Assembly: GCA_009602725.1 (NCBI GenBank)
Contig: WELB01000141.1
Span: 166,130 to 230,129 of the forward strand
Direction of reading: 5' to 3'
DNA length: 64,000 nt
From: Spirogloea muscicola
Lineage: Eukaryota; Streptophyta; Zygnematophyceae; Spirogloeales; Spirogloeaceae
Part shown: in pieces, positions 2,577 to 64,000 of the stretch
Numbering within the stretch: the stretch's first letter is position 1
Layout of the letters: each line of letters starts with the position of its first letter
Notes under the pieces: model-generated
Seen by the model: only the letters and a program-made list of their open reading frames with translations
Told to the model about the DNA's origin: nothing
Database searches by the model: none
Program-made: the position numbers and the translations under genes

Positions 2577-5616
<3,040 letters not shown>

Positions 5617-9479: not shown

Positions 9480-10250
9480 GCCCTATGCATGGCCAATATA
9501 GAGATTCAGTGTTACGACAATGCTCCTTATACGGTGGTGCAAGCGTGGGTATTGTTGCAAGCAATTGATGATGTATAGCATAGGCCATGATTTTGTAATT
9601 TCATGCTTGTTACCCGCAAGCAGTGGTCTGGGATTAATACAGGGAGGACACAGTCTTCCTTGGAAATCTTGCTGTCTTTCTCCCACTCAATGTCACTTGC
9701 AAGTGATGTATTGCTCATGCACAGGCTCACAAAAGTTTTTGTGCTTAATCGAATGAGTTTGCAAACTTCTGCTCAATGGAGGAGTTGTGCAGAGTCCATA
9801 CCTCCCTTGCCGGTGGATCTTAGCATGGCCTTAACGTGCACAGCAAAAGTGCAGGCAAATGGTGGAATGGGTGCGGGCTTGACCGTCAACGGAGTAGCAA
9901 TTATGTACTATACTGTCATGAAGCAGGCACAGGCACTTGTCTTCGGAGCAAACCATGCCAAATCTTTTACAAACGGAACCTCAGGCTTCCCGGCTGCTCG
10001 CTTGAAGGCGAGGTCACCTGGGCCATAGCAGCATGAGCAGCAGCGTGAGGAACTCCACGATCTAGTGGAGCATCCGTGTATTTCCGAGTGGTATGCTAAC
10101 GGACAGATGGAAGTAAGGCCTTCACTCATTTGGCCTGCTGGACGAAAGCGCACATGCACGTCACGAGGCGTCATAGCAAAGGCACGAATTAGCTGAAAAT
10201 ACGAAATAGCAACCCTGGATGCCTAAACCCTTGTACCGAGACACCTAGGC
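9480..10250 (-). CDS. Unassigned exon cluster (possible small gene)
   Basis: Between the proteasome gene and RIO2 the minus strand carries stretches that look coding, but I do not recognise the product. After a TTTCAG acceptor near 10195, the frame reads LIRAFAMTPRDVHVRFRPAGQ. After a GCCCAG near 10020 it reads GDLAFKRAAGKPEVPFVKD, and another open stretch near 9895-9800 reads TPLTVKPAPIPPFACTF. A further one near 9690-9610 reads DIEWEKDSKISKEDCVLP. An alanine-rich run from the ATG near 10293 would be a plausible organelle-targeting first exon. However, its frame meets a stop at the visible donor, so the start is unresolved. If real, the gene is divergent from RIO2. Confidence 0.3.
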
Positions 10251-10296
10251 GAGCCGCGACGCCGCCGCCGCCGCCGCCGCTGCCGCCGCCGCCATT
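10222..10296. promoter_or_regulatory. RIO2 upstream region with AAACCC motif and GCC run
   Basis: An AAACCCTT (10225-10232), a partial telo-box, is followed by a GCC/CGC trinucleotide run at 10259-10296. This is about 160-230 bp before the RIO2 ATG. The same combination occurs before several other genes in the window. Confidence 0.35.
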
Positions 10297-10455
10297 GGCG
10301 CCGCCGTCTTGACGCTTCGAGCCCGATCTGAGTACCAGGGCGACGTCCGGGCTCATCCGAGGCAAGCTGTGCGAGCGTCGTCCTACTGCGGGCCCCTCCA
10401 GCTCGGAGCTTGGCCGGCGGAGGCCTGGCGGCTGCCGGTGGCGACAGCGGCCGCC

Positions 10456-15009
<4,554 letters not shown>

Positions 15010-15984: not shown

Positions 15985-16290
15985 AAACCCACCTATGCAT
16001 TCCCTGCCCTTACATGTGGGGCAAGGGGGAATGAACCAATAATTGTGAGGAAAAGATCGTGTATTAGAAAGAAATGTAGGCCAAATGGCCAGGTACAAAG
16101 GCAAGCACATCTAAAAATCTACATAACCTACAGCAGATTGACCCGCTCAATAACCACGGGTCAAAACATAAAGGTCACTACTCGATGCATGAATACTAGA
16201 TGCCAGGAACGGAGCCCTTCTGCCACCTACTAGAGCTCGCCCAGCTTTCTGGTGCAAGGCACTAGCCTGAGCACCTGTGAGGGGGATGGG
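15985..16290 (-). mobile_element. LINE 3' end, family A (5'-truncated)
   Basis: The minus-strand frame ending at 16147 reads ASALHQKAGRAL, a diverged linker, then SSSDLYVLTRGY-stop. This is the same C-terminus as the long LINE frame at 36609-38144. After the stop, a tail rich in 'gcgggtcaatctgctgtaggttatgtag' and 'tgtgcttgcctttgtacctggcca' follows down to about 16020. That tail is nearly identical to 36330-36465. Upstream of about 16290 the similarity fades. 16291-16690 is otherwise empty of recognisable genes. Confidence 0.8.
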
Positions 16291-20099: not shown

Positions 20100-21465
20100 T
20101 GTTCGCCATATTCGCCGACGCCGAAGCTCGCCCAGCTTTCTGGCAAAGCATCAGCCTGGGCACGCTGAGTGGCTAGCTCAGCACCCTCTGCACGGAAGCC
20201 GCACTCACACTGGCGCATCCCAATCAGGCAGTTAGGTGGGAGGCCGAGGAAGAGGTGAAGCGACGTCCGAAAGGCCTCGGAGCTGACGCTGAAGGCGTTG
20301 GCGACGGCGTGTGAGGTTATCCAGTCGGTGGCACCAGGTGTGGCTAGAGAAGTCTTGCCAGGCTCCTTGGATTGTTCTGAATCCCTGGCAGCCTCCTCAA
20401 CCTTCTGCGGCGCTCGTCTTCCACTGCCGTAACCAGTTTAGATTGTGCCCCCTATCAGAAGCCTGGGCGAGGGCGGAGAATGGCATGAGTAGGGGTTGGA
20501 GAGAGGGAAAAGAGCCGATGGCTGAGTCGCGGATGCTCCTCAGATCCGCTTGGAAGGGGAAGGAGCCTTCCTCCACGTCGCGTACAGGGTCATGGAGGCA
20601 AGGGAAGCGCATGGGGAGCAGAGAGGCGATCTGGTGCCAGCAGCCCAGGCTGCTTGCGCCGTCTGCTCCAACGACCGGCAGCCAAGGCCGCCATGCGAGT
20701 GGGAAGGGAAGCCTGGAGGGAAGATGAAGCGGAGGGGAAAGATGAAGAATGTAGAAGGGATGCCGGGGACTGCAGAAGTAAGAAATGCGGCTGCTGATAC
20801 TAAGGAATCGGCTGTAATCTGCAGAAGGGAGTTGTCGAATTCCTTGTAAAGCTAGCCAATCATGCCCATTGGGGCGACTGTGCGTTGCAGGTAGCGTGCC
20901 CGTTGGCCGATGCAGCGGGTGAGAATGGCCAACGCCAGCTGTGTCTCCAAGGAGGGGAAGGGAGGGGAGCGAGGTGTTGTTGGAGGCGTTCCCGCAAGTC
21001 CACCGCCACGTGAGCTGGTGTGCCGAGGGGGACCTTGAGGATGGCCAGCCCATTGGCAGGGGTCTGGCAGCCATGGGGGAGTTGGAGGTTGGCGAGGAGA
21101 CCGCGTGGGAACCATGCCACGCTCTTGGACGGGCAAACCCGCAGGCCCATCAGGTCCAGTTCACGAACGAGCAAGGGGTAAGCCGCCGTGACTTCAGCTG
21201 GAGGTCCAATGATGTGTATCATCCGCGTAGGAGGGGAAGAGGAGCTCTGGGTGCGTCGTATAGCCCGGCAATGTGCCAAGGCCAACAGGATTTGCTTAAG
21301 GGGATCTCCCTGGCGTGTGCCAGTAGATGACCACAGCGTCTTCCACGACCCTCCGGCTTGCCACAGCAGCCGCCCTGGGCGGCCATAGGCCATGAGGAAA
21401 AAGGATATAAGGGAAGGGAAGTGGTCGCGCAGCTCCTCCATGATGACGCTGCGCTCCACTGTGTT
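20100..21465 (-). mobile_element. LINE reverse-transcriptase fragment, family A, broken
   Basis: The minus strand holds the C-terminal half of a non-LTR reverse transcriptase followed by its downstream domain. The RT motif STGTRQGDPL lies at about 21325-21290. A YADD box is readable near 21228-21239 but in a different frame from the following HIIGPPAEV, so the frame is shifted there. Then LAILKVPLGTPAHVAVDLRERLQQHLAPLP (split in two frames) matches the start of the 36609-38144 frame. Near 20850-20740, extra sequence (about SRISYFCSPRHPF) interrupts the match. The zinc knuckle CECGFRAEGAELAT (about 20190-20220) jumps directly to RAQADAL, skipping the nuclease domain. This shows an internal deletion near 20167. 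The copy is dead. Confidence 0.85.
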
Positions 21466-21479
21466 GACAAGCCCATGGC

Positions 21480-21745
21480 CTCTTGCTTTCTAGCTTGCCT
21501 TCCCCCACAAACTAATGACCTCCCTTGAAGGGAGAGCACCAGCTCCTCTTCTCTCACAAGTCATATCCAGACTTGTACTGACAAAAACTAAGAGAAAGGA
21601 CGAGGTGTCCAGGAGTAGCTCCCATGATGTGGCGCTTCTTAGAACTACATACAGAGGGCCTCCCATCTGCTCCTACTGTCAAAAAACCTAGGCATATTGA
21701 GCAGACATGCTGGAAGAACCACCCAAAAAGAAGAATGTTGTGCTC
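21480..21745 (+). mobile_element. Fossil fragment of Ty1/copia-type LTR retrotransposon (gag part)
   Basis: A short plus-strand piece resembles the end of a copia gag: a KRKDEVSRSSSHDVALL-like stretch followed by a CCHC zinc-knuckle remnant (about 21667-21720). It is broken and isolated, with no LTRs, protease, integrase or RT seen nearby. It is wedged between two LINE copies. It is probably old, with age uncertain because the copy is too short to compare. Confidence 0.55.
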
Positions 21746-22610
21746 GCCCATTGAGGATAGGGGCTGGAAAAGCCAGCCCAAAAAAAGATCAACAAATTAC
21801 GAGAAGGGGGCCACGGGAAGCGCCAAGAAAAACAAGCACACAAAGAAACAAAGCAGCCACACAAATCACTCAGTAACCCCTGCTAAGGAGCCGCAGATCA
21901 GAGATGCTAGGCTCCTGGAAGTGGGTCCCCTGGCCAGAGCCAGAGGCAGCGGTGAGGGCTCTGCCGGCACGAAAGTGCAGCGCGCGGGCCATAGACCTCT
22001 GCAGCGAGACGGCCAGACGCATACGGTACACTTGCGCCAGCGACCCGGCTGCAGGAAAGTCTACCAGCTCCCCATGGCGACGGGCGATGGTGTGGCGGGC
22101 GAGCTGTGGTGAGCAGCTCAAGCCACCGAGCGCCCAGCGCCCCATGGGTGTCAATCGCCAACGGGAAGAATTCGTCTTCCCGCGGATGGTCGGCGTACTA
22201 GAGCTCTTTAGCCCGAGCGGCGCAGGCGACCGCATCCCCAGCCTTGGTGGCATATTGGGCTGGGTGTGAGCGGTCGTATGCGTCGGTGGTCACCACGTCC
22301 AGGAGAAGACGTGGCCCGCCGGCCTGTGGGGTGGCCACCAAGTAAGTCTACACGACGGTCCTGGAGACCGTCGGCCCCTTCCTGGAGCGGCATGACGCCG
22401 GAGTGCTCCGCTGCAACCGAGAAGCCAGCCTCCACCAGGATGCCATGCATCATATCGCGGAGGCGGTCGTGGGCCGCTGTCCGCTCGCCGCCGGGGGCGC
22501 AGCGCAGAGCATCAGCGGCCAGCTCCCCAGACTCGCTCGCTGCATACACACTGACGCACACCCTGGAGACATGGAGGCGGCAGTCCCAGGAGCCGGTGGA
22601 CGGCAGTGCG
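21745..22610 (-). mobile_element. LINE 3' portion, family B (5'-truncated)
   Basis: Minus-strand frames read HDRLRDMMHGILVEAGF then SGVMP and RRVDLLGG (about 22480-22330). These align with HNLLRDALAGLMRDAGY, SNVMP and RRTLDIVG of the 36609-38144 frame, so this is the nuclease-like domain of a related element. A frame change then leads to RMRLAVSLQRSMARALHFRAGRAL and the end SISDLRLLSRGY-stop at 21870. The tail 21870-21745 has the family-B text (gtgatttg..agcagccact reversed) and the hairpin GGGCTGGAAAAGCCAGCCC at 21761-21779. It abuts a plus-strand copy at about 22612, head to head. Confidence 0.82.
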
Positions 22611-22611
22611 A

Positions 22612-22960
22612 AAGCTCGCAAGCATTGGCACTTCATCAACGTGCAGGGCGCGCTTTAAGTCAGGCCTCCGGCTTTCGTGGCGGCGCTCCAGCTTCCCAAG
22701 TTAGCTTGTCGGATTTGTTTGTGTTCACCCGTGGATACTGATGTCACCTTAGGCACCTTGCTTTAGGTTTCCGTATTATGTAGCCCTGTTTAGTTTGCCG
22801 TAGACTCTGCCTGAACAATGTGTCGGCTTGAATTGGCCTCCATCTCAATTCATGCGCCCCGCGCGCCTTCCCCCTTTGGGAGAGCCACTTTCTTCTCTTT
22901 CGCCCCCCTTGCGAAGAGAGAAGGCGCGCGATGCGCATAAAACTGAAAGGGAGGCCAATT
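22612..22960 (+). mobile_element. LINE 3' end, family D
   Basis: The plus frame QALALHQRAGRALSQASGF leads to SQVSLSDLFVFTRGY-stop (22739-22741). The 3' tail then reads 'gtcaccttaggcaccttgc' and 'ctgcctgaacaatgtgtcggcttgaattggcctcc', ending near 22870 and degrading to about 22960. A reversed copy of the same end is at 55435-55665. The tail motif recurs near 35835, 49100 and 50190. Confidence 0.8.
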
Positions 22961-31640: not shown

Positions 31641-31965
31641 GATCGCCGGCTGCAGTGCGGATCCTCGTTGGGGCTTTCGACCTTTAAGGTGTCCTGCTAC
31701 CGTATGCGACTGTCTATGTCCCTGCAGCGCTCCCAAGCGCTTGCTTTGCACCGCCGCGCTGGTCGCGCCCTTGCAGCAGCCTCTGGCTTGCGCAGCGGGG
31801 TTGCTCTTCCTCCCCTCAGCTCATCTGACTTCCTACTGCTGACACGGGGGTATTGAGGGCGCCCTGTCTGCCTAGCCTTTGGCTCCGTCAGGAACACCTG
31901 TATGCATCTGGCTGGCATTTCACAGCCGATTCTTTCATATCAGCAGCCGCTTTCTTCTTTTTTTT
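31640..31965 (+). mobile_element. LINE 3' end with tail, 5'-truncated
   Basis: The plus frame reads CYRMRLSMSLQRSQALALH, RRAGRALAAASGL and LSSSDFLLLTRGY-stop (31854-31856), the shared LINE C-terminus. The tail contains the CTGGCATTTCACAGCC element (about 31909-31925) and 'ttcatatcagcagccgctttcttcttttttt' ending at about 31966 in a T-run. The whole piece lies within 100 bp of the mS37 start codon. Confidence 0.75.
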
Positions 31966-32059: not shown

Positions 32060-32695
32060 ATGGGGAAGAAGAGCGAGGTGCTGCGCGTGAACCCGCGCAC
32101 ACTCGGCGGCCGCAAGGTGCTGTCCTGCTTCACCGAGATGATGGCCTTCATGTCCTGCCTCAAGTACGCCAGCTTCAACTCCGACAACTGCGGCGCTGAG
32201 AAGCGTGCTCTCAACGCCTGCATGGAGCTGCAGGCAAGCCCTTGCTGCCCCTTTAGCATGTCACCTGCTGCTAGCTCTCTGGGCAGCGTCTAACTTTCAC
32301 GCACGCAACGTGCAAGTCTGCTTATTGCCTGGTGAGTGCTGATGGTCATGCAAGTCCGACAACCGCTAGGATATCAGGATGTAGGTATTTGGCACAGTGA
32401 AGTTGGTGGAGAAGGGATGGAGACCACGTCAACCTGCTGCCTTTAACTGCTCGCATAGAGGAGCCAGCCTGTGAATGTACACGCGCACTGTGTGCAAGAA
32501 TCTCTTGCTGCTGCATGGGCACACCAGTGCAATCATGCAAACTGCCGTTGGCAAAGAAAGGACCGTCTAATTGCTGGCTGGCAGCGGACAGGCAATGATC
32601 AGAAAGCTTCGCTTGTTTTGCAGGCGAAAAGGAACAAACAGGTTCCGCCCATAAACTATCACTTGCAGAGACTCTCGAAGACCATGCGAAGATGA
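32060..32695 (+). CDS. Mitochondrial ribosomal protein mS37 (CHCH domain)
   Basis: This is a small twin-CX9C protein of the mitochondrial ribosome small subunit (CHCHD1/Mrp10 family), imported through the Mia40 pathway as inferred from the family. Exons 32060-32233 and 32624-32695 give 81 residues. The start MGKKSEVLRVNP is followed by Cys at 23, 33, 44 and 54, which form two exact CX9C motifs (CFTEMMAFMSC and CGAEKRALNAC). The C-terminus is basic: NKQVPPINYHLQRLSK. The intron begins with GC (CAG|GCAAGC). Other small CHCH proteins are possible, but the PPINYHLQRL tail fits mS37 best. Confidence 0.82.
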
Positions 32696-33243: not shown

Positions 33244-35598
33244 TTATGTTGCGGGGTTTGCGGAGTTCATAGGGCGCTCTACCACTCGAATGCCCGCATT
33301 CTTGTCCCAAGCTTCTGCTGACAACGTGTCAGCCATCGCTTCTTGCCCTCTCCAAAGGACCTAACAGGCAATCGCAGAAAAACAAGGCTTGATCAGTCTG
33401 CACTCCGTGAACGAGGCAGCAATGAACAAGCACATACGGATGACAAGGTTGTATATGACCCTGCCCACCTTGTCTGCAACACCAAAAGCAATGGCCTTCT
33501 GAGGATTCATATAGTAGGGCCTCTCCATGACTTTTGATACTTTCTCCACGGGCTGATTGCCACAGAGAAATCTAGTGTCAGTGTGCGCACGGAAGTTGAC
33601 AGCTCATTACATCTGACAAATAGGAACATAAAGTGCACAAGCCCATGCACAAAGTTTTGCTTCTGAAAGCAGCCCATGGTTCCTCTCTGGAGGCCCAACA
33701 ATGCCTTACATTGCCTGTGTGACGTGCCAAGAGCTTCACAAGGCAATCCCGATTGTTGATAACCTAGCAAGATAAAGAATTGCAACTTCAGTGTGAGGCC
33801 AGAAGTGCGTCCAGAAGACGCCTGGCAAGTACTGCAAGGATGTAGAATCGATCACGTGCCACAGCAATGCCATCAAAAATTTAGGGTACGTGTTGTACCT
33901 CTTTTGCTCGGATGTGAACATCAATGGCACTCATCTGGCCAGTTGAGGGCAAGCGTGGCTGCTGAATCATGGCTGGAATTTGAATGGCAACTAGTCAATG
34001 CTGGCAGTATGCCTAAAGACTCATAGTTGCAGCTTTTCACACATAGTTGCAGCTTTGCATATATGTATCAAGTAACCTATCTTCCAATTATGTCACAGAC
34101 AACAAAGAAGTCCTCCAAAGAGGAGGCGTTCTCAACGACCTGTGGCATGAGGGAGCATGAATCTTCGGCCTTTTCCACCAGCTGCAAGAAGAAGGCAGGC
34201 CTGACCAATCGCAGCTCCTACGCCCACAGTTTGGATCTGAATGCCAGCCAGCGGCAGTCAGCCACCTAAGGAGCAGTAATAATTCTCCTCTGACTGTGCA
34301 TCCGAAATACAGGATTCCTACAATGAGATGGTAAAGACTCAGCTACTCAATCCAAGTCTACACCATGAGATCAGACTACGCTCCAAAACTTGTAGCTTGT
34401 ATGCTCCCTAGCTCTTGAACTAGGAGAAAGCTGTGCCAAATCGTCAAGTACCGAGTTTTTGACTTGTCTCATGGTGTCATAGATGGCAAAGCCTTCTGTC
34501 TCCATGCCAACCTGAAAAAGAATCAGCCAAGTAGAAGTCAGTGCCCATATACACTGAAACATCTACACAGGCAAATGAAATATCAACATGCCGCTGAGAT
34601 ACATGATTTCAGATTTCTAAGATCATGTATAATCTGCCGAGCTATGTATGTTTCTTGGAGACATACTGTTTCACCATCAGCACGTGATGTCCCAGTGGAG
34701 TTGATGTAGATGTAGGTTGGCTGTCTTGGGTCTAGCCACTGGAGATAGAGAATCTCAGCAATGACCAACTCTGTGACAGCTGGCACAAGCTGCAGTCGAC
34801 ATACCAGTAACCTTGTGAACCATAATCAGTACCATACACAAAGACACAGAGCCTTCGCTAGATACGACATCACAAATCATTAATAATAACACTTTATGAT
34901 CGCAGACGACCACACAGCCTTAACATCGGTGCATACAGTCAGTTCACGGTTGTTCTAAAAGGAGGGTTGCTTGTTAGGCCAAAACACCATCTGAGCACCT
35001 CTAGGGAAGCCCTGACAACCTTCAGCAGGATAATACAATCCTTATAAAACAAAGAAAACCTAGTATTTCGTATCAGGCTATGATTCCACCCGTGATGCAA
35101 CTGATCCCTACAGGCAGTCCACACGCTTACTGGCATGCCGATGTACACAATCCTGCTGTTGAGGAGAAGAGAAGGCAGGTCAGGCGGAGGCCGCCGCGGC
35201 CGGTGCTCGCCGTAGTTGCTGCCCCTCTCCACCTGTGCAGGCGCCGTCATCTGCCGCTGCACCATCTTGGCTGCCGCGATGTCCAGGAGCGGCGGGCCGT
35301 CGTATTTGCCTTTGGCTGCGTCGCTCAGCTGGTCTCGGCCCTCCTCCGAGGCGGCCGCCATCTCCAGCCAGGGGAGGAACGCATCCTGGAAGGGCGGTAG
35401 CACGGCGCTGGAACGGCGGGAGACCAATGACATGGTCCACCTCGAGCGGCCAGCGTGCGCGCCCGCGAGCCGCCCGGCTCCTGGCCGCCGCAGCGACGAG
35501 GCACCCGGGCCGCGGCTGTCCCAGCTGCCACAGGGCCGCCCGGCTGCCCAGGCGTCCGCCGCCTGGACACCGCACCGGGCGACAGAGGCTGCCGCCAT
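33244..35598 (-). CDS. CLPR1: Plastid Clp protease non-catalytic subunit ClpR1
   Basis: ClpR1 is a structural, proteolytically inactive ring subunit of the plastid ClpPR protease. Exons (minus) are 35131-35598, 34667-34789, 34452-34511, 34140-34236, 33899-33972, 33710-33763, 33469-33552 and 33244-33360, giving 358 residues. The N-terminus (MAAASVARCGVQ, Arg/Ala-rich) fits a transit peptide. Family matches are PPDLPSLLLNSRIVYIGMP, VPAVTELVIAEILYLQWLDP, YIYINSTGT, GMETEGFAIYDTM, QPRLPSTGQMSAIDVHIRAK, RPYYMNPQKAIAFGV and VLWRGQEAMAD ending AWDKNAGIRVVE. At the ClpP catalytic Ser position, the sequence is GAAIGQACLLL with no Ser, as expected of ClpR. The ending is extended by about 11 residues. 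Promoter telo-boxes lie at 35772-35793. Confidence 0.95.
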
Positions 35599-35771
35599 GG
35601 CGCGCAGCCCGCGAAGATGAAGGCGACGACCGCTTGGCCGGGGCAGCGCCGGCGGGGGCCGCCCGTCAAGGCCGCGCGCGAGGCCGGCCTGCGACAGCTC
35701 TTGGCAGGAGGACGTGGGGTGCGGAGGGTTTTGAGGTGAGCAGGTCAGTCACTCACTGTCGACCTTCGCTG

Positions 35772-35793
35772 AACCCTAAATCTTAACCCTAAA
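35772..35793 (+). promoter_or_regulatory. Two telo-box motifs upstream of CLPR1
   Basis: AACCCTAAA occurs twice (35772-35780 and 35785-35793), 13 bp apart and about 175-195 bp from the CLPR1 ATG. Confidence 0.45.
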
Positions 35794-35819
35794 TCTTAAC
35801 CTTCTGCCAACCCCACCAC

Positions 35820-36470
35820 CCCGGCGTCTGCTCTGTGGACAATGTATTGGCTTGAATTGGCCACCCATTTCCAATCATGCGCACCGCGCGCGCCTTCTCT
35901 TCCTGCCCGACCGCTAGGCCCTCAAGCCTCGAAGCGGATCGTCTCCGCCTCTGGGTCTCAGCGGAGTGCCTCGTTCCCTGCAGCAAGCTATTCCGGCCTG
36001 ATGTTGCTCACTCGCGGATACTGAGCCTTCCTTTGCATCGTCGTGTGATCTGCGCCATGGTTTGTATAGTGTAGTCCCTTCTCGGCACCACTTCCGTCAG
36101 GGCGATGTCTTTCCGCCGGCTAGCTACTCAGACTTGCATCTCCTGACTAGAGTGTACTGAGCGTTCCCTGGCTGATGTCTTAGTCCTAGTCCTTCGCACT
36201 CCGGCTCCATCAGACCTTGTCCATTCCTTTGGGTTGGCCTTTCCCAGCCACCAGTTAATCTGGCCGCGCTTCTTTCTTTGGCTTTGGACATTGTTCAAAG
36301 CCAAAGCCAGCCCTTTTTGGTATTCATGCATCGAGTAGTGACCTTTATGTTTTGACCCGTGGTTATTGAGCGGGTCAATCTGCTGTAGGTTATGTAGATT
36401 TTTAGATGTGCTTGCCTTTGTACCTGGCCATTTGGCCTACATTTCTTTCTAATACACGATCTCTCCTTTT
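35820..36470 (+). mobile_element. Stack of three LINE 3' ends (families D, C and A)
   Basis: A family-D tail (tggacaatgtattggcttga, about 35836-35900) runs into a C-terminal scrap ending LMLLTRGY-stop (about 36000-36023). A second scrap, GDVFPPASYSDLHLLTR, ends at about 36157. It is followed by the family-C tail 'tactgagcgttccctggctgatgtcttagtcc' to about 36290. A third piece (36318-36465) is the family-A end LYVLTRGY-stop with its tail, nearly identical to the reversed copy at 16020-16195. Each piece is 5'-truncated and inserted next to the previous one. Confidence 0.75.
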
Positions 36471-36471
36471 T

Positions 36472-38240
36472 GGGCTGGCTTTGCCAAGCCCTCTTCTCTA
36501 TGGGCAAGCACTTTCTTCTAATCGTCTCCGGTTTCCCTTTGTTTCGCAAGGTTCCCCTGCTGCTGGGCTGTGGCGGCCCGTCTATAGAGCCATCGGGGTT
36601 GATTTCCATTGCCGGTCATTCTCACTTCGGCGCCCCAGCGCCACAGCCCTCCGCCAGGGCTGGCTGTTCTCAAAGTTCCCCTTGGCACACCATCCCACAT
36701 TGCGGAGGACTTGCGTGAACGCCTGCAGCAACACCTTGCCCCCCTTCCCTCCCTTCCCCTCCTCGGAGATCCGCAGCTGGCGCTGGCCATCCTTACTCGC
36801 TGCATCGGTCAACGAGCTGGCTACCTGCAGCGGACAGTCGCCCCAACGGACATGGTGGGCGAGCTGTACAAGGAGTTCGACACCTCCCTCCGGCAAACCC
36901 TGGCTTCCCTGATTCAACACCCATCCTTCCCCTCACCTTCATCCTCCCTGCAGGCATCCCTTCCCACACGAATGGGCGGCCTGGGCTGCCGGTCACTTGA
37001 ACAGACGGCGCAGGCAGCCTTTCTCGGTTGCTGGCACCAGGTTGCCTCCCTTCTTCCCTTGCGCTTCCCTTGCCTGGCCGGCCCTGCAGCCGAGGTGGAG
37101 GAAGGCTCCTTGGCATTCCAAGTACAACTGAGGAGCATCCGGGAGTCAGCACTCGGCTCCTTCCCGTCCCTACAACCCCTCCTCACCCCCTTCTCAGCGC
37201 TTGCTCAAGCACCAGACAAAGCGGCACAGGCCAGACTCGTTGCGGCAGTTGAGGACGAGCGTCGCAAGGCGTTGAGGACGATGCCGGATATCAAGACCAA
37301 TCCAAGGAGTCTGGCACGTCTCACATCGCTCGCAACGCCTGGGGCAACGGATTGGCTCACCACACACGCAATCCACAACGCTTTCAAAATCAGCCCTGAA
37401 GCATTCCGGACGCTTCTCCAGCTGTTCCTGGGCCTGCCCCCGACCTGCCTGATTGGAGTAACTCAGTGTGAGTGTGGCTTCCGTACGGAGGGCGGAGACC
37501 TAGCCACCCACATGCTGCGGTGTCCCACAGGCCCTGAGGTGGTGGGCGTCCACAATCTCCTACGGGACGCCCTGGCGGGCTTGATGCGCGACGCCGGCTA
37601 CCGCGCCATCGTTGAAGTGAGCAATGTAATGCCCATCACCACGGATTCCCAGGGAGGCCATCACCGTCGCACCCTGGACATTGTGGGTGTACAACCTGGC
37701 GGAGGCCCACGAGCTTTGGTTGATGTGGTGGTGACTGAGGCATACAAGAGTTCCGCTTCCACACACATTGCTGGCCACGCAGTGGGAGGTGCTGAGCAGA
37801 AAAAGCTCCGACACTACTCAGACTACCCCCGCAGTGACCACCTCCTCCCGGCCGCAATCGACACTTTCGGCTGCTTGGGTCCTCGCTTCCATACCCTACT
37901 CGAGAACATAGCGAGTCTGGGATATGCACGACGCGAGGATATGCTCCCAGCCCAGATGGGTATGCCGGCAGCCTATCTGTCATTTCTGCGACGTCGAGTG
38001 TCAACCTGTCTGCAACGAGCTCAGGCGTATGCTCTGCATCAGAAAGCTGGTCGAGCCTTAGCTGCTGGCACAAGAGCTAGTCAATTGCCGTCCGGTATTC
38101 GAGCGTCAGCTAGCGACCTCTATGTGCTGACTCGTGGTTACTGAGCGGGTCAGCTTAGCAGCAGGTGACGTACATTTGTCCAATGTGCTTGCCTTTGTAC
38201 TTGGCCACACATGGCCTCCCCATCTCTTAATATACACGCA
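36472..38240 (+). mobile_element. LINE, family A: longest copy (post-RT domain and nuclease)
   Basis: A 511-codon frame (36609-38144) covers the C-terminal half of a non-LTR retrotransposon protein; the RT core is missing, so the copy is 5'-truncated. A zinc knuckle, CECGFRTEGGDLATHMLRC, lies at about residues 287-305. A nuclease-like domain then shows RRTLDIVG (Asp about 357) and ALVDVVVTEAY (Asp about 372), 14 residues apart, then EQKKLRHYSDY. That spacing fits the PD-x12-14-D signature of restriction-like endonucleases of early-branching LINEs. The frame ends SDLYVLTRGY-stop. The tail (gcgggtcagcttagcagcaggtgacg ... cttgcctttgtacttggccac) ends near 38240. The flank at 36472-36490 carries the hairpin GGGCTGGCTTTGCCAAGCCC from an older tail. 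The frame is intact over its length. Confidence 0.85.
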
Positions 38241-38373
38241 TTTTCCGCCAGCGCCGCGCCTGCGCCTCTCCCGCGCCGCGGGCCGTGGCCGGCGCCGGAG
38301 AAGGCGGCCGGCCTTCCTGCGCCGGCGCCCTTGCTCTTCCAGCCCGGAGAACACCCGCTGCACCCTGCGGGGC

Positions 38374-39780: not shown

Positions 39781-41153
39781 CCGCAAGGATGAAGGTCACC
39801 AACGCTCACATGCCAGAGTTATTCAACGATGTACATTTCCAGAATGCAATGTGATTGACAGCGGGTTGACCCCTTGAATTAGAGGGTCCAGCTCTACAAG
39901 AGAGACAACTGTACGATACAATGCCTACATGGCCTTCAATTGCACCTGCAGATCTGTATCACGTATTTTTTCTGGTGAAACTTCCGCTTCCAGAGTGCTG
40001 GGTACAGCTCGCTGGAGATAACGCATTGAGGTTCGATCATTGCATTGCCTCAAGCATCGGCACTTAGCTTAGGAACAGTGGCATCTTACACTGCGAGGGG
40101 GCCAAGCATGGCAGTGCGAAGATGGTGCCTTCTGTCGAAAATCCTCAGTCCACAATGCATGATAGTATCCTGGGATGGAGTACTCCAGCTCGTGTCGGAG
40201 CCCACACGTCGACTATGTTGGACATGACCGACGCTGGGTTGACGCCTTTGCTGACATATCGTTTTTACTAGTAGTATGTAATATGCAACTGCTACTTACG
40301 GGCACCTGTCAAAGCCAGCCGAGTGCGGAGGAGATTGTGTAGTGAGTGTCTGAGGTGATGCAGTGTACAAAGAAGGTGTACAAAGCCGATGTGATGGCCC
40401 TGCACCGGATGTGGCAGCCGGTGACGGGCAGGCCAGAAGGGCCAGGGCTTGAGCCGAGGCTGGTGAGAGTGCCAGCGGCCCCCAGGCCCCCACCCCCCCC
40501 CCCCTCCCCCTTTTTTTGGTTCTTTTTTATTATTTTCTAACTTTTCTTCTCTCCTATCATGGGGACTATCGGTGATAGCCGCTTTGTTTTGCTGAGTGCT
40601 GGGGCGTCTTGGGGCTCACCCCTTGACCTTATCAGGTTCTCTTGAGCTGGCATTCCACATCCATCGCCTCCTTATGAGTGCGTATGAACGAAAGGGGAGG
40701 CCACATGAAGCCCATGCACTGTTCATGCAGAAGGCAAAGGCAGTGCAAAGAATGGGGCTGCACAAAGCAAGACCCCAAGACCCATATTACTGAGTGCTGA
40801 GCGCTGCCGTGTTGGGGCTCACCCACAAGGTCTAAAAGGGCAACTACGACTGGAGGAGAACGGAGTGTGTATGGAGTGATAGAGGGGCTACTACCCACGA
40901 GTGAGCACAGACAAGTTGGACAGCCTAACTTGGGGAGCCGGAAGAATGAGCTCGCCCATTGAGGATAGGGGCACCGCCCGGGGTAGCTAGTGGTGGCCGT
41001 TGCGGAAGCGGGAAAGTGCGCATTCAAAAGCCGCACTTCCGAAGGGAAAGCTCCACCACCATCCGACCCGCCGAGCTTTGCAACTTCCTCGCCGCCGCTG
41101 CCGCCGCCGTCGCTACCCGCCGCCTCGCTCGCGGCCTGGCGGCTGCCCGCGCG
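39781..41153. other. Intergenic with reversed LINE tails and C/T-rich run
   Basis: 39823-40300 shows nothing recognisable. A poly-C/poly-T run occupies about 40487-40540. Around 40636-40790 is text related to the CTGGCATTCCACATCC tail element. Around 40880-40975 (minus) is a scrap of the common LINE end (GCTCACTCGTGGGTAG after a CCCAAGTTAGGCTGTCC stretch), and 40950-40970 carries 'gctcgcccattgaggataggggc', the end of the family-B tail reversed. Confidence 0.5.
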
Positions 41154-44604: not shown

Positions 44605-45165
44605 AAGACCAGAATGCGGCTGCTGATGCAAAACGAGCGCTTATGGAAGCCAGCCAGGTGAACGCTGAACTCCTTTTTTTTTTTTTGGGCCACAGGCCGG
44701 CAGCGCTGGCACCCGGGCGCCGTCGGATGTGGGTACCGGCCACGGCGCGCCTTATCTGCATCGGACGGCGCAGCAGCCCCCTTCTCGGGGCACCCCGCCT
44801 CGTCAGCGCAGCCCCGGGCGGCTTCGCCACGTGCACAGTAGTGACGCCGCGTGGCGTGGCCAGCTCGCGGCGCCTGGCCTGGGGACAAAAAGGCGAAGGA
44901 CTGGCCCAGCACAGCCTCTCCGCGCCTGTCGGCCCACTTGGACAACGAGCTCATCCGGAACTCTGCCAAAAGGGGAGCTGTGACCTAAGGCTGCTTAGCA
45001 GGGGTTTCTGAGTGATCCATAGCTGCTTTCTTTTATGTGCTTGTCTTTCTTAGCGTTTCCCCTGGCCCCCTTCTCGTCCTTTGCATTCTCTTTGGGCTGG
45101 CTTTTCCAGCCCCTATTCTCAATGGGCGAGCACTTTCTTATGAGAAGCCAGCCCGAGGCGAATTG
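44605..45165 (+). mobile_element. LINE 3' tail, family B, and repeat debris
   Basis: The reversed word 'gcggctgctgatgcaaaa' (about 44613) and a T-run (44674-44688) start the block. CDLRLLSRGF-stop at 44985-45011 is the shared LINE C-terminus. Its tail then reads 'gtgatccatagctgctttctttt' to the hairpin GGGCTGGCTTTTCCAGCCC at 45094-45112 and 'cctattctcaatgggcgagcactttctt'. This is the clearest sample of the family-B tail. Confidence 0.75.
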
Positions 45166-49084: not shown

Positions 49085-50250
49085 GGACTTTGAAAGGCTC
49101 GCATTATTGGCCTTCCCTTTCATTTCATGCGCACCGCCTTTCTTCTGCGACGGCACGAGACGGGTGCCCGCTTGGACGGCTCGCAGCAGGCCCGGCGGCG
49201 ACTCCACCCCAACGCCGTTGGCGCCTCCCCCTCACCCCGCCCAAGGTCGGTGGGCCCCCCCGCCCCAACATGGCCCTATCGTGCGCCCTCGCCCTCAACA
49301 GTGGGTCATGTACGTCATAAGATGTGCTTGCCGTTGGCCATTCCTCGTCTTCGTTTGGTACAAAAATAATTCCTCAACCCTCACGTCCGGCCGCCCCCCG
49401 GCGCCGTTGCAGGGGTTTGGCCCTTCATTGACCCTAGGCCCCTCAATCGACACTTTCAGCTGCATCGGCCCTCGCTTCCACACCTTACTGGAGTATATTG
49501 CAAGTTTGGGATATGCTCGACGTGAGGATATGCTTCCAGCTCAGATGGGCATGCCGGCAGCCTACTTGTCGTTCTTGCGTCGTCGAGTGTCAGCTTGTCT
49601 GCAGTGAGCTCAGGCTCATGCGTTGCATCAGAAAGCTGGTCGAGCCTTTGCTGGTAGCCCAAGAGCTTGTCGACTGCCGTCCAGTATTCGAGCATCAGGT
49701 AGCGACCTCTATGTGCTGACTCGTGGTTACTGAGCGGGTCAGCTTAGCTGCAGGTGACGCACATTTGTCAGTGTGCTTGCCTTCGTACTTGGCCACTCAC
49801 GGCCCCCCTATCTCTTCATAGACACGCATCTAGTCATCGTACTGGGCGCTCCCTTCTATTTTCCTCACCCAGGCCACCGGCTTCCTTGGCTGTGCTCCGC
49901 TCTCTAGGTTAGCCTGTCCAACTTCAGTGTCCGCCTCCTTCATCAATTCTTTTCGGGCTGGCTTTCACAGCTGTTGCCCCCGTTGGGAGTGTCACTTCTC
50001 CTGAGGCACTAAGATGCCCCTCCAACCCTGGCTCAGCGGTGCGGTCCTTCTCCAGAGAAAACTTTCTGTAGTGGCATTTCAAGCCATCGTCTCTTCGAAA
50101 CGAGTCCCTCTTAGCATAGGGCTTCGCTTTGTGCAGGCCCGCACTTCCATTGCCTTTTGTATTTGCTCTGTATTGACATTGACCTTGCTCGGCTTGGCCT
50201 CCCTTTCAATGCATGTGCACCCCCCGCCTTCTCTCTCTGGTTGCTGCCTC
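49085..50250 (+). mobile_element. Cluster of LINE 3' ends (families D and A)
   Basis: A family-D-like tail scrap is at about 49095-49140. A family-A end follows at 49437-49850: IDTFSCIGPRFHTLLEYIAS, LGYARREDMLPAQMGMPAAY and LSFLRRRVSACLQ match the 36609-38144 frame almost exactly, then a stop codon replaces the Arg after LQ. The remaining text still encodes AGRAF and SDLYVLTRGY in frame. The tail (gcgggtcagcttagctgcaggtgacgc) ends near 49830. 49850-50060 carries another tail with the GGGCTGGCTTTCACAGC element (about 49957), and 50185-50240 another family-D scrap. Confidence 0.8.
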
Positions 50251-53567: not shown

Positions 53568-53739
53568 AAATCACGGCTCACGGGGATCCAGCCGATTTTT
53601 AGTAGTCGTTATTGCCGTCGGCGTGGAAAAGTATAAGCTCTTCCATGTGAAGCAACGGCTGTGAGATCAAGCCCACAAGGAATGATGAAGACGAAGAATG
53701 GAGAACTCTTCCAGTAGAAAATTTCGTGAATTTGAAACA

Positions 53740-54115
53740 AACGAAGGCCAAATAGCTAAGTACGAAAGCAAGCACATCTAAAGGCCTACATAACCTACAG
53801 TAGATTGACCCGCTTAGTAACCACGGGTCAAAACGTAAAGGGCGATAGCTGTGATTGGCCATCTCAGGGGAAACGAATGAACAGGCTCCAAGGCCTAGAA
53901 GAAGTGGCACTCCCATTGGCACTCCCCCAGTCCAAACACGCCGACCACCCCGCTTCATATGAGTTCGTCCCCTTGGTTTTCCGTTTCTGGCATCTAGTAT
54001 TCATGCATCGATTAGTGACCTTTGTGTTGTGACCCGTGGTTATTGAGTGGGTCAATCTGCTGTAGGTTATATATATCTTTTGATGTGCTTGCCTTGTACT
54101 TGGCCATTATACACG
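53740..54115. mobile_element. Two family-A LINE tails in inverted orientation
   Basis: A reversed family-A tail lies at about 53755-53845 (minus; 'agcacatctaaaggcctacataacctacagtagattgacccgc'). A forward copy lies at about 53990-54112 (plus), ending VVTRGY-like/stop then 'gagtgggtcaatctgctgtagg'. They face each other about 150 bp apart. Both are only the last 100-130 bp of an element. Confidence 0.75.
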
Positions 54116-54585
54116 GAGTTCCCTTGGCTGTGGACGTGCACGGGAACTCTCGGGTCCCAGTGGCTCGACCTGCTGGCCAGGCTCGCGCTGCACGCTGTGT
54201 CCCACAGGCGAGGTGAGCCGGCCGATTTTAACGCCGCTGGCTCGAGGGCCCAAGTCATCGTATGATATTGTCGGTCTCACTTCAGCGGTCCATGGCCCAA
54301 GCCGTGCATCTGCGTGCTGGCCGTGCTCTCGCTGCGGCCTCCGGCTTTTGTCAGGGGGATAGTTTTCCGGCAGCTAGTCTGTCGGATTTGAGGCTCCTCA
54401 TTCGTAACTACTGAGTGAGTTGTCCATCCTCCCCCCGTACTGCCATAGCTTCTTCAGGCCCCTTCTTCTTGCCCCTTCGTAGCTGCTAAGCGTTTTTGGG
54501 CCCCTTCGAACGTCTGTCAGTTCTTTTCGGGCTGGGTTTTCACAGCCCTTGCACCCATTGGGAGAAGTGGACAAAGGTTCGAAGG
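54115..54585 (+). mobile_element. LINE 3' end, family B (plus)
   Basis: The text reads TEFPLAVDVHG-like, then a Gln-rich/Ala region, RSMAQAVHLRAGRALAAASG and PAASLSDLRLLIRNY-stop (about 54411). The 3' tail contains GGGCTGGGTTTTCACAGCCC (about 54529-54548) and 'ttgcacccattgggagaag'. Reading frames shift inside the piece. It is tail-to-tail with the next element. Confidence 0.75.
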
Positions 54586-54589
54586 TGCC

Positions 54590-55400
54590 AAATGACTGAG
54601 GGGCCTAAAGAAGGAGTGGCTCTCCCAATGGGGGCAAGCGCTGTGAAAAGCCAGCCCGAAAAGAATTGACAAAGGCTCGAAGGGGCCAAATGACGGAGGG
54701 GCCTAAAACGCTATGCAGCTACGAAGGGGCCTGAAGATGCTATGTCAGAACGGGGGAGGATGGACCACTCGGTAATTACGAGTGAGGAGCCTCAAATCCG
54801 ACAGACTAGCTGCCGGAAAACAATCCCCCTGACGAAAGTCGGAGGTCGCAGTGAGAGCACGGCCAGCACGCAGATGCAAGGCGTGGGCCATGGATCGCTG
54901 AAGGGAGACCGACAATTGCATACGATATACCTGAGCCCACAAGCCAGCGGCGTTGATGTCAGCCTGTTCACCACGCCTGCGGGACATAGCGCGCCGGGCG
55001 AGCGTGGCCAGCAGGTCGAGCCACTGGGACCCAAGAGCCCCGTGCACGTCCACAGCCAGGACTACACTACAAAGTGCAAGACGGTGCAGAGGGAGATGCA
55101 GATGGCTGCTCAGTATCCAGGGGCACGAACTAGTCTCCAGCCGGGTGGTCAGAGTGTTTGGGAGCCTTGCTGCGAGCGGCCTTCGCCGCAGCGTGGCCAG
55201 CCCGCGAGGCAGAGCGCCCCGGGTTCGAGAGGCAGAGCGCCCCGGGTTCGAGCGGTCGACCACATCCGTGGTGACCAAATCAGCAATGATGCGCGCCGCC
55301 GCCCGGCGTGGACGACACCAGGTCGACGCGGCGCGTGTGGAGTCCGTCGGCCCTCTGGCCTGAAGCACTCAGCAGCTACGAAGGGGCCTGAAGAAGGTGC
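54590..55400 (-). mobile_element. LINE 3' end, family B (minus), tail-to-tail with previous
   Basis: The minus frame reads VVLAVDVHGALGSQWLDLLA, RRAMSRRRGEQADINAAGL, VYRMQLSVSLQRSMAHALHL, RAGRALTATSDF and ASLSDLRLLTRNY (about 54780-54820). The tail continues to about 54590, including the reversed hairpin element (54619-54660). Upstream similarity runs to about 55400. Against the 54115-54585 copy the C-terminal 70 residues agree closely, so the two are young relatives. Confidence 0.78.
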
Positions 55401-55434
55401 TGGGCCGGAGCAAGAGTGGCTCGCCCATAGATAG

Positions 55435-55665
55435 AAGGCGCGCTGAGCGCTTGAAATGGAAGGGAGGCCAATTCTAGCCACTACATTGTTCAGGCAGAGT
55501 CTAGTGCAAACTAAAGAAGGCAACATAATGTGGAGCCCTACGCTAAGGTGCCTAAGGTAACAGGGTCACACTACTACCAACGGGTGAGAACAAACAAATG
55601 CGACAACCTAACTTGGGGAGCTGGAGCGCCGCCACAAAAGCCGGAGGCCTGACTTGATGGGGTGT
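55435..55665 (-). mobile_element. LINE 3' end, family D (minus)
   Basis: This is the reverse complement of the end at 22640-22870. The minus strand reads SGLRLLWRRSSS-like/SGFCGGAPAPQVRLSHLFVLTRW-like text across 55665-55590, then the tail 'gtgaccctgttaccttaggcacctta' and 'gaacaatgtagtggctagaattggcctcc' to about 55450. It is diverged but clearly the same element. Confidence 0.72.
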
Positions 55666-56075
55666 TACCAGCAGTGGCCACATGCGCCGCACTCCTGCTT
55701 CCGGGAAGCCAGTCTCTCTGACCTAAGGCTGCTTAGCAGGGGTTACTGAGTGATTTGTAGCTGCTTACTTACTGTTCATTCTCTTTTGGGCTGGCTTTTC
55801 TAGCCCCTATCCTCCATGGGCGAGCAATTTCTTACTTTCTTCTTAGGCTTGTTTTCTTAGTGCTTCCCCTGTCCTCTGTTCATTCCTTTTTGGGCTGGCT
55901 TTTTCCAGCCCCTATCCTCAATGGGCGAGCGCTTCTTCTAGAGGTTACTGAGCGTTCCCTGGCTGATGTCTTAGTCCTGGTCCTTCGTACTCCTCTCACT
56001 CCGGCTCCTTCAGACCTTGTCCATTCCTTTGGGCTGGCCTTTCCCACATACCAGTCAATCTGGCCGCGCTTCCTC
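55665..56075 (+). mobile_element. Stacked LINE tails (family B twice, then family C)
   Basis: SLSDLRLLSRGY-stop (about 55725-55767) is followed by a family-B tail with hairpin GGGCTGGCTTTTCTAGCCCC (55788-55807). A second copy of the tail follows with GGGCTGGCTTTTTCCAGCCCC (55892-55912). Then a family-C tail, 'ttactgagcgttccctggctgatgtcttagtcctgg', runs to about 56072 and matches 36155-36275. The block ends about 170 bp before the LCMT1 ATG. Confidence 0.78.
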
Positions 56076-61194: not shown

Positions 61195-61440
61195 CGCCCC
61201 CGCAGAAGAAAGGGCTCGCCCATTGAGGATAGGGGCTGGACAAGCCAGCCCAAAAAAGAATGAACAAAGAACGAGAAGGGGGCCAGAGGAAGCCAGAGGA
61301 AGCGCTAAGAAACCAAAGCACACAAAGAAAGAAAGCAGCTACAAATTACTCAGTAACCCCTGCTAAGCAGCCGCAAATCAGAGAGGCTAGGGTCCTGGAA
61401 GTGGGTCCCCTGGACAGAGCCAGAGGCAAAGCCGGCTAAG
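61195..61440 (-). mobile_element. LINE 3' end, family B (minus)
   Basis: The minus strand from about 61440 reads CLCPGDPLPGP-like then SLSDLRLLSRGY-stop (about 61350) and the family-B tail. The hairpin GGGGCTGGACAAGCCAGCCC lies at 61232-61251, and 'atcctcaatgggcgagccctttctt' ends near 61200. It closely matches 21745-21930. Confidence 0.8.
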
Positions 61441-62125: not shown

Positions 62126-64000
62126 ATGTTTCGCTTCAAAGGTGTGGCGTCTGCCGGCTTCTATGGTGAGCACTGCTGTCCTCTGCCACCAGATCTGTGT
62201 TACAGTCAACTGGCAAGGGATGCCAACTGCTCGCTAGATGCGAAACCAAGCCGACATTCTGGTGTCCAGTGCGTATAATGAGGCCAAACCCCCCTTGCAG
62301 GCGGCATGTCAGTAGCTAGCGTCTTTATCAACAAGGCCATTTTCCACGTCTACAAATTCAACTATCCGTACACGCTAGTACTCGGCCAGACCATCTTCAC
62401 GCTCCTCCTCATCTTCGTGATGAGGAAGCTCGGCGTTATCCGGATAGGCAGGTTCCAATTGCACATTTTCCGCCGAGTGAGGCCCTTTACCTCAGGTCTC
62501 GTATTGTGTCTTTGTCTAGCTAGATCTCAACAAGGAGGTCCATCTAGTCGGCTTATGCATCCAAACGACAAGAGTTGCGCATTGACAGGATGCAGATTGA
62601 AGGGAATAAGTTTATCATATTCTTTGGCCTTGACATGCTGTTGTGCACTGCTGCTCACTCTCCTTTGGACCATCTGCTATCAGGTATTCTTACTATCCTT
62701 TGCTTTCCTCCTCAAGCTCCTACTGGACATGTCAGCTCTGAATAGAGTCAACATCCCAATGTACGGCGTACTGAAGAGCTCCACGACGCCATTTGTCTTG
62801 GCCCTTGACTACATTATGCGAGATAAGAAGGCCTCCACCAGGGTGCAGCTCGCTGTCTACTTGACGACGTTCGGGGGTCTCCTTGCCGGCTTTGGAGACT
62901 TGACTTTTGATCTGGCGGGATACATCCTGGCTTTGTCCTCCGCTATGGCCACAGCGGCTTACGTGGTGATTGTGGGGAAGCTGGGGGAGGAGCTGCAAAT
63001 TGACTCCTTCACTCTCTTGTTGTATAATAACTTCTGGTCTCTTCCATTCTCTTTCCTTCTTGTCTTTGTCAACGGGGAAAGCAAGGCCCTCAGAAGCTTC
63101 ACTCACTTCAGGGAGGTGCCTTTCCTGGCATATTTTGCACTATCGTGCACCTCAGCCTTCATCCTCAACCTAGCCACATACTTGTGCACAATGGTGAACG
63201 ACTCGTTAACGACCAGCATTGTCGGTAAGCTATCTTCTACTAACTATACAGCCTGATGTGGTATGAGCCATGCTGAACTCTGGTGGACTTCTTCTTGAGC
63301 GCCATTGTCGAGTTCGGTGCTGAGGGGCTCATTATCATGTACATGGAAGAGGGACATGACCGACTTATAGCACACCAGCACTGCAGATACATTGCTCTGC
63401 TGCTGATGGTATACATTCAATGTGCTAACAGGGCGGACCAAGAGTATCTTGCAAGGATTTGCAGGCTTATTTGCATTTGGCGATGTTGTGGTAAGCACTG
63501 AGAAAGACTACTACACAGCACATGTTGCTCATCAGCAGGCTGATGAATTGATAGTATCGTTGTTATTACTTCTGCAACTGTTTACTTCAGTAACCTAGGA
63601 GGGCAGGCAAGCACGGACAACAATACTCATAACGTTGCTGACCTAATGCTGAAGAGGGGCCAAAACTTTATGCTCAGAGGTGGACTCGTGTCAGCAGCCT
63701 GGATGGCCGGCTTGCAACATGTCAAAATACCCTTGTACTGCTAGCCAACCTCTTGATACTGGAATGGATGGGCTTCATTGCTGCAGATGAACCCTGTGAA
63801 CCTGGCAGGCTTGGTTGTGAACTCCTGTGGGATTGGCTGGTATGCATATGAGAAGTACTTGGAAGCAAAGACTAGGATGCTCCAAGCAGGGGCTCACAAA
63901 GCAGGGTCTGCAGGAGAACCGCACACCCACGTCTTACACAGGGAAGGGTCACAGGTGCACACAGTGGACTCAGTGCTTTACCTTTCTATGTCTGGCAAGC
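62126..64000 (+). CDS. Nucleotide-sugar transporter (SLC35D-like), 3'-partial
   Basis: This is a Golgi/ER multi-pass antiporter of the drug/metabolite transporter superfamily that imports nucleotide sugars. Exons are 62126-62165, 62301-62476, 62684-63224, 63432-63490 and from 63787; the gene may continue past the window. Matches include GVASAGFYG, FINKAIFHVYKFNYPYTLVL, LNRVNIPMYGVLKSSTTPFV, TTFGGLLAGFGDLTFDLAGY, AYVVIVGKLGEELQIDSFTL, LYNNFWSLPFSFLLVFVNGE, CTSAFILNLATYLCTMVND, SLTTSIVG joined to RTKSILQGFAGLFAFGDV, and NLAGLVVNSCGIGWYAYEKY. This order is that of SLC35D/plant KT-type transporters; the SLTTSIVG-x-KS motif is typical. The substrate cannot be told from sequence (UDP-sugars are likely). 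Confidence 0.9.

Follow-up and report, generated by a model that had tools for sequence, protein, structure and literature searches.

The open frame at 36603-38144 (+) in the 64,000-nucleotide stretch of DNA that we analysed (hereafter the window) is a 5'-truncated copy in a multi-copy LINE family, not an intact gene. The best reading of its sequence is that the family very probably encodes a reverse transcriptase (RT), followed by a zinc knuckle and, at the C-terminus, a PD-(D/E)XK-like nuclease of the restriction-like endonuclease (RLE) kind.

An open frame and its copies

The frame measures 513 codons from stop to stop and runs from 36609 for 511 residues without a stop. It carries a zinc knuckle, C287-x1-C289-x11-H301-x3-C305 (CECGFRTEGGDLATHMLRC), followed downstream by R-R-T-L-D357-x14-D372, in which 14 residues separate the two Asps, and then by K398-K399-L-R-H-Y403. 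The sequence-only reading had placed CxC-x11-H-x3-C, Asp-x14-Asp and a Lys cluster in one frame, and its residue numbers and stop-free length of 511 residues were right. Its description of the frame as single and intact holds in that the frame is open; it does not hold for the element, of which this is a 5'-truncated copy. Similarity to the related copy A begins only at 36624 (tblastn), 36644 (blastn) or 36645 (phmmer), and therefore the initial 5-12 residues may lie outside the element.

Chance is ruled out as the source of the frame: we generated 60 random sequences of 64 kb from an order-1 Markov model with the local dinucleotide composition, and their longest stop-free frames averaged 295 codons and did not exceed 426. 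A host gene is likewise ruled out by the many truncated copies. Shuffling the protein 20,000 times produced 55 occurrences of a loose knuckle pattern, 32 of a loose D-D-K pattern and a single one of both in that order, these patterns having been picked after the protein had been inspected.

Searches with tblastn and phmmer found the family at nine further places in the window, and a 3'-end signature added two more, the short 3' ends at 53806-53830 (-) and 54030-54054 (+) (Table 1). At three of the places listed in Table 1, tblastn and phmmer matched a shorter C-terminal stretch, namely 49443-49730 (+), 16150-16287 (-) and 36316-36366 (+). This 25-base signature at the stop codon, which was drawn from the family copies themselves, occurs at six places with at most 3 mismatches, compared with a mean of 0.00 in 100 shuffles. 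Nine C-terminal ends were read, that of the main frame among them, and each terminates in a variant of SD(L/F)...R(G/N)Y followed by a stop codon. The C-terminal and 3'-UTR end is thus common to copies of unequal length, as in dispersal of the non-LTR type, in which copies are commonly 5'-truncated. No LTRs were noted in the self-BLAST of the window. The two copies of a further related family, at 22610 (+) and 55415-55655 (-), are 80% identical across 241 bp.

Differences between the main frame and copy A fall mostly at third codon positions: 37/280, 27/281 and 120/276 sites differ at positions 1, 2 and 3, respectively (13.2, 9.6 and 43.5%; 66 gapped columns excluded). The family therefore encodes a protein that was under selection. 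The corresponding counts are 2/15, 0/14 and 5/13 for a second, 44-bp piece of copy A, 17/96, 3/97 and 22/97 for the 49443 copy, and 10/41, 8/41 and 19/41 for the 16281 copy. Between the knuckle and nuclease core of the main frame and those of copy B, dN is 0.57 and dS 2.19 over 140 codons, the latter value being saturated.

Table 1. Positions of the LINE-derived features and the repeated module in the window
Feature	Position	Strand	Basis
3' part of LINE ORF (thumb and linker by analogy, zinc knuckle, RLE-like domain, C-terminal tail)	36603..38144	+	open frame
Stretch common to copy A, GLAVLKVPLGT ... LPPTCLIGVTQ; thumb and linker by position	36645..37466	+	similarity
Zinc knuckle CxC-x11-H-x3-C, residues 287-305	37467..37523	+	motif
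RLE-like nuclease core; codons D357 at 37677, D372 at 37722, K399 at 37803	37524..37926	+	motifs, alignment, models
C-terminal tail, end SDLYVLTRGY; forms of the tail end in other subfamilies too	37927..38141	+	phmmer
RNA hairpin over stop codon and 3' UTR start	38126..38154	+	folding
3' UTR; blastn similarity to 49443 copy stops at 38241	38145..38241	+	blastn
Copy A: RQGDP and YADD (different frames), linker, knuckle start; nuclease region deleted	20138..21489	-	
Copy B: knuckle region, RLE core, tail; frame breaks and a stop; core identity 46%	21873..22640	-	
Copy C: RLE pieces RRVD, ADLVTTD, KAPKH and tail; frame-broken; short insertion within 55055-55132	54772..55375	-	
3'-end copy (49443 copy), DNA 86% identical	49443..49829	+	blastn, tblastn
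3'-end copy (16281 copy)	16086..16287	-	tblastn, signature, phmmer
Short 3'-end copy just upstream of main frame (36316 copy), ends approximate; CCTTTTTGG at both flanks	36316..36460	+	
Short 3'-end copy, ends approximate	53708..53850	-	signature
Short 3'-end copy within C-type nuclease frame	53977..54127	+	signature
Related family, C-terminal end	31662..31853	+	phmmer
C-type copy, C-terminal end	54265..54411	+	phmmer
Further related family's 3' end, same C-terminal signature (C-terminal end 22610..22738)	22610..22900	+	
Same family, second copy	55415..55655	-	
Module TTTTTGGGCTGGCTTTTCCAGCCCC..ATGGGCGAGC	21690-21870	-	
Module, continued	61214-61343	-	
Module, continued	45022-45133	+	
Module, continued	55773-55826	+	
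Module, continued	55836-55930	+	
Module, continued	36467-36511	+	
Module, continued	40941-40972	-	

Reverse transcriptase motifs and the region upstream of them

The link to an RT runs through copy A, in which RQGDP (at 21315) and YADD (at 21229) lie 86 nt apart in different frames. YADD is followed by a stretch that can be aligned to the main frame (GLAILKVPLGTP against GLAVLKVPLGTP) and by the start of the knuckle, CECGFR, at 20192-20209. Copy A is cut before the knuckle His: its sequence passes directly from the knuckle start to QRAQADAL, a C-terminal piece recovered as a 44-bp match by blastn, and the nuclease in between is deleted. No RT model in Pfam matched the copy A piece, the read-through version included, and the RT call is therefore made by motifs; a PDB search with the read-through RT piece returned only a Sel1 protein (E 0.74). 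An RT piece had been said to overlap the start of the main frame. It does so by homology (20974-21063 against 36645-36734) and not by position, and the frame concerned is 20863-21489 on the minus strand, with YADD in another frame than RQGDP; what stands is the joining of RT motifs to linker and knuckle. These alignments support the assignment of the putative RT (by its motifs), linker, knuckle and nuclease to one LINE protein.

Such a protein might also carry an APE at its N-terminus in addition to the C-terminal RLE, which would make the family a dual-endonuclease LINE of the RandI/Dualen type, a placement that we regard as possible, if doubtful. RandI/Dualen is described as encoding both an APE and an RLE (PMC4640811) and is reported from C. 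reinhardtii (PMC3747384) and, in the passage of PMC8226300 that concerns it, from all species studied. Like the family here, it is an RLE-bearing LINE with algae as a possible host group, and because it is known from Chlamydomonas and its relatives the host plausibly fits, the exon at 32060 being closest to mS37 entries that we take to be from plants and a green alga thus being plausible; it differs in the extra N-terminal APE, the two having been compared by description only. Against this placement, the copies seen in the window all stop short of the region upstream of the RT, none of the 33 frames scanned with Pfam (out of 66 of at least 150 codons) matches an APE or RT model, and Pfam did not recognise an RNase H in the main frame.

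The probable C-terminal nuclease and its comparison with known LINEs

In RLE-bearing LINEs, according to PMC5678591, the first K of KX2KY is the catalytic Lys, and the fold runs in the order helix, three strands, helix, strand; for R2Bm, the residues given are Asp996, Asp1009 and a helical Lys1026 (PMC10499050). D357-x14-D372 and K399-L-R-H-Y in the main frame fit the RLE arrangement of two Asps 12-14 residues apart and a Lys four positions before a Tyr. In copy B, RRVD and LLLDVVTTD are present along with a Lys four before a Tyr, a stop lying in between, and copy C has RRVD, ADLVTTD and (S)KAPKH in pieces, with the Lys four before a His. The gap between the Asps, 14 residues in the main frame, is about 15 in copy B and about 13 in copy C, both measured across frame breaks. 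Both Asp columns, the Lys column and the Tyr column are identical in the main frame, copy B (joined from frames) and two invertebrate sequences, which we take to represent a family with RT and RLE from sponges and other marine animals without backbones and which were confirmed in no database searched.

We compared the domain with the R2 nuclease sequences of PDB 9nl2, 9nl3 and 9dou. A profile built from the window only aligned with R2 in hhalign at a score of 16.4, through the second Asp and the Lys only, and this result is weak (3 of 200 column shuffles scored as well). A four-row profile aligned both Asps and the Lys at a score of 31.3, which 0 of 200 shuffles reached, although this stronger score rests partly on its two rows of unconfirmed invertebrate sequence; these two sequences by themselves scored 20.3 against R2 (0 of 200 column shuffles).

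The family shares with R2 (9nl2, 9nl3, 9dou; R2Bm, as described in PMC10499050) the layout of RT, thumb, helical linker, CCHC zinc finger and C-terminal RLE, as well as the Asp-Asp-Lys register and the Lys before the Tyr (EKVRHY in 9nl2, KKLRHY in the main frame). It differs in several respects. The CCHC knuckle is present between linker and nuclease, but its spacing of CX1CX11HX3C is outside the CX2-3CX7-8HX4C published for RLE-bearing LINEs (PMC5678591), and the position of its His is taken by Asp in copy B. The Asps of R2 are separated by x12 rather than x14, and 18 residues lie between the second Asp and the Lys in 9nl2 compared with 26 between D372 and K399. The usual form of the first Asp motif is (K/R)PD, which is the form seen in the R2 sequences from PDB, whereas the Pro is absent from the main frame (RRTLD) and from copies B and C (RRVD), which have L or V in its place. 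R2 also has a single target site, unlike the family here.

Strict membership of the R2, R4, NeSL, Hero or CRE clades is unlikely on these grounds. The domain order is the same and the Asp-Asp-Lys register aligns with that of R2, but the knuckle spacing, the longer stretch from the second Asp to the Lys and the lack of an insertion site common to the 3' ends of six copies all speak against it. CRE, NeSL (with Utopia), R4 and Hero are listed as RLE-bearing LINE clades in PMC4640811, a trait that the family here probably shares; the same source treats CRE, R2, R4 and NeSL as mostly target-specific and Hero as often not. Ambal, which appears in the Repbase list, is known here by name only.

We also examined predicted structures. 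Two AlphaFold models, built from 4 and 5 window rows, are both poor (mean pLDDT 41.5 and 47.0); helix-strand-strand-strand-helix appears in both and a fourth strand in the second only. None of the 533 and none of the 657 Foldseek matches to the two models reached E <=0.001, and the top match was RavZ (E 0.0025). No R2 chain is among the matches listed (the best 50 of 533 and the best 50 of 657). Weak matches in these lists include XisH, MspJI and NurA, which we take to be nucleases or nuclease-like, yet also TDP2 and acetyltransferases, which have other folds. A fold other than PD-(D/E)XK that carries Asp and Lys by chance, for example for nucleic-acid binding, would suit the lack of a confident fold in the models and the different folds of RavZ and TDP2, but it is very improbable given the place of the domain after RT, linker and knuckle, the Asp...Asp...Lys-x3-Tyr/His kept in three subfamilies, the secondary-structure order, and the register aligned with R2.

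A PD-(D/E)XK-like nuclease, with D357, D372 and K399 as its predicted cutting site, therefore remains our preferred reading, and by analogy with R2 the domain would have both the PD-(D/E)XK fold and its catalysis. That the order of knuckle and nuclease is the one seen in PD-(D/E)XK LINEs, as had been proposed from the letters of the DNA, agrees with D...D...K-x3-(Y/H) in three subfamilies and with the R2 alignment. An HMM search of the frame for RLE and RT profiles had been suggested as a check, and it gave no match in Pfam or NCBIfam. Because of the altered knuckle, the long Asp-Lys gap and the missing Pro, we classify the family as a LINE whose way of working resembles that of RLE-bearing LINEs and which shows the strict RLE features only in part.

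Database searches for the nuclease returned nothing from Pfam and NCBIfam (Pfam E up to 1 with the frame, 5 with profile A1 and 10 with profile A17), and PDB sequence and profile searches returned either nothing or five chains that are unrelated (E 0.5 at best), with no R2 (profiles A2 and A17). No relative was confirmed in IMG/VR, GTDB genomes or phages, nor with the two invertebrate sequences in IMG/VR and GTDB. Two Methylocystis plasmid records (E 0.6, 32% identity over 81 residues) were taken as chance matches. Since the IMG/VR, GTDB, phage and plasmid collections are non-eukaryotic, the absence of relatives from them says little; the family is a new LINE family with respect to the searched, largely non-eukaryotic collections, and is ordinary in kind. 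Eight alignments were set aside because MAFFT had misplaced short fragments, and the DNA alignment of B- and C-type tails was too poor for use.

The two unconfirmed invertebrate sequences matched window profile A13 in hhalign with a probability of 92% (E 6e-7) and profile A2 with a score of 63.1 (maximum of 20.8 in 200 shuffles), and they share with the family an AG-x-A...A-x2-K-x3-Y helix and a P-x-A-x-(D/E)-x2-G motif. The two might represent an old, separate RLE-LINE branch that marine invertebrates and a eukaryote of the plant lineage have in common. Its marks would be a knuckle that is presumably CxC-x9-11-H-x3-C (x11 in the main frame), a long Asp-Lys stretch, no fixed target and a stop-codon hairpin that constrains the protein end and RNA recognition together, but we hold such a branch to be unlikely.

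PMC4640811 regards LINEs with an RLE as the older type, and R2 is described as under development for gene insertion. The features that set target choice would be easier to recognise with the help of a family whose knuckle and nuclease geometry are altered and that lacks a fixed target. As the main frame is a 5'-truncated copy of an unplaced family, what is gained is chiefly the annotation of a family whose several subfamilies can be compared.

3' ends, insertion sites and neighbouring features

An RNA hairpin is predicted across the stop codon of the main frame (-16.4 kcal/mol, z -3.33). Among the eight ends that we folded, z ranged from -2.4 to -3.7 in five (38122, 36347, 53800, 54393 and 54754) and was weak at 54024 (-1.1), and the ends at 31831 and 21856 (copy B) did no better than shuffles. 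A hairpin in every subfamily is thus ruled out, as copy B and the 31853 copy do not form it and it is weak at 54030. At the second base pair, counted from the outer end of the stem, the main copy has C-G where the 36316 and 53806 copies have U-A, a change on both sides of the stem; the 16281 copy agrees letter for letter with the 36316 copy at the hairpin, and C-type ends pair CACTCG/CGAGTG instead.

The DNA that follows six of the 3' ends differs copy by copy, and there is therefore no single target; a site-specific family is ruled out by these unlike flanks. Insertion into 28S rDNA was not found, the 3' flanks of the six copies being different and Rfam having no match in the window, which therefore holds no rRNA. 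In a check of six copies for target site duplications, which in LINEs vary in length, the 9-bp repeat that flanks the 36316 copy was equalled in 4 of 300 shuffles, and the flank repeats of five other copies in 43, 51, 62, 129 and 160 of 300.

By analogy with R2, the protein would consist of RT, thumb and helical linker, zinc knuckle and then a PD-(D/E)XK-type RLE. The predicted RLE would nick one chromosomal strand, with D357, D372 and K399 at its cutting site, and the RT would copy the element RNA from the freed 3' end (target-primed reverse transcription). Such copying would often halt early and so leave 5'-truncated copies such as 36603-38144. The RT might plausibly recognise its own RNA through the hairpin that covers the stop codon and the first part of the 3' UTR.

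The tails of two families, at 53961-54128 (+) and 55055-55132 (-), interrupt C-type copies at the same codon boundary, between FVPL and AVDV, and joining the flanks restores the frame in each of the two interrupted copies. This site (CCYTGG/CTGTGG, seen twice) may be an insertion hotspot or may reflect chance. A further tail-like end at 35996-36085 (+), running from ..GGATACTGAGC.. to ..TAGTGTAGT, resembles the short insert of copy C, with a local alignment score of 19 compared with a maximum of 18 in 300 shuffles. The module ..TTTTTGGGCTGGCTTTTCCAGCCCC..ATGGGCGAGC, which forms the 3' UTR of copy B, recurs across the window (Table 1) and perhaps represents the tails of several families or a SINE.

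Other features of the window include an exon at 32060-32233 (+) for an mS37-like (CHCH) mitochondrial ribosomal protein, which matches PDB 9evs (E 2e-7) and 6xyw (E 3e-7), the next match having E 0.014; we take the 9evs and 6xyw mS37 chains to be plant entries, and on that basis the host may belong to the plant lineage, for example as a green alga. Four frames are possible host-gene fragments: 10249-10767 (+), with a Rio2 N-terminal domain (E 6e-5, below Pfam's cut-off); 3973-4686 (-), with a KH domain (E 1e-4); 62282-63256 (+), which resembles a triose-phosphate/GDP-mannose transporter (Pfam E 3e-5, below the cut-off; PDB E 4e-5); and 35163-35786 (+), with DUF6274 (E 3e-4, below the cut-off). 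At 35772-35801, AACCCTAAATCTT is repeated 2.3 times and contains CCCTAAA, presumably the plant-type telomere word.
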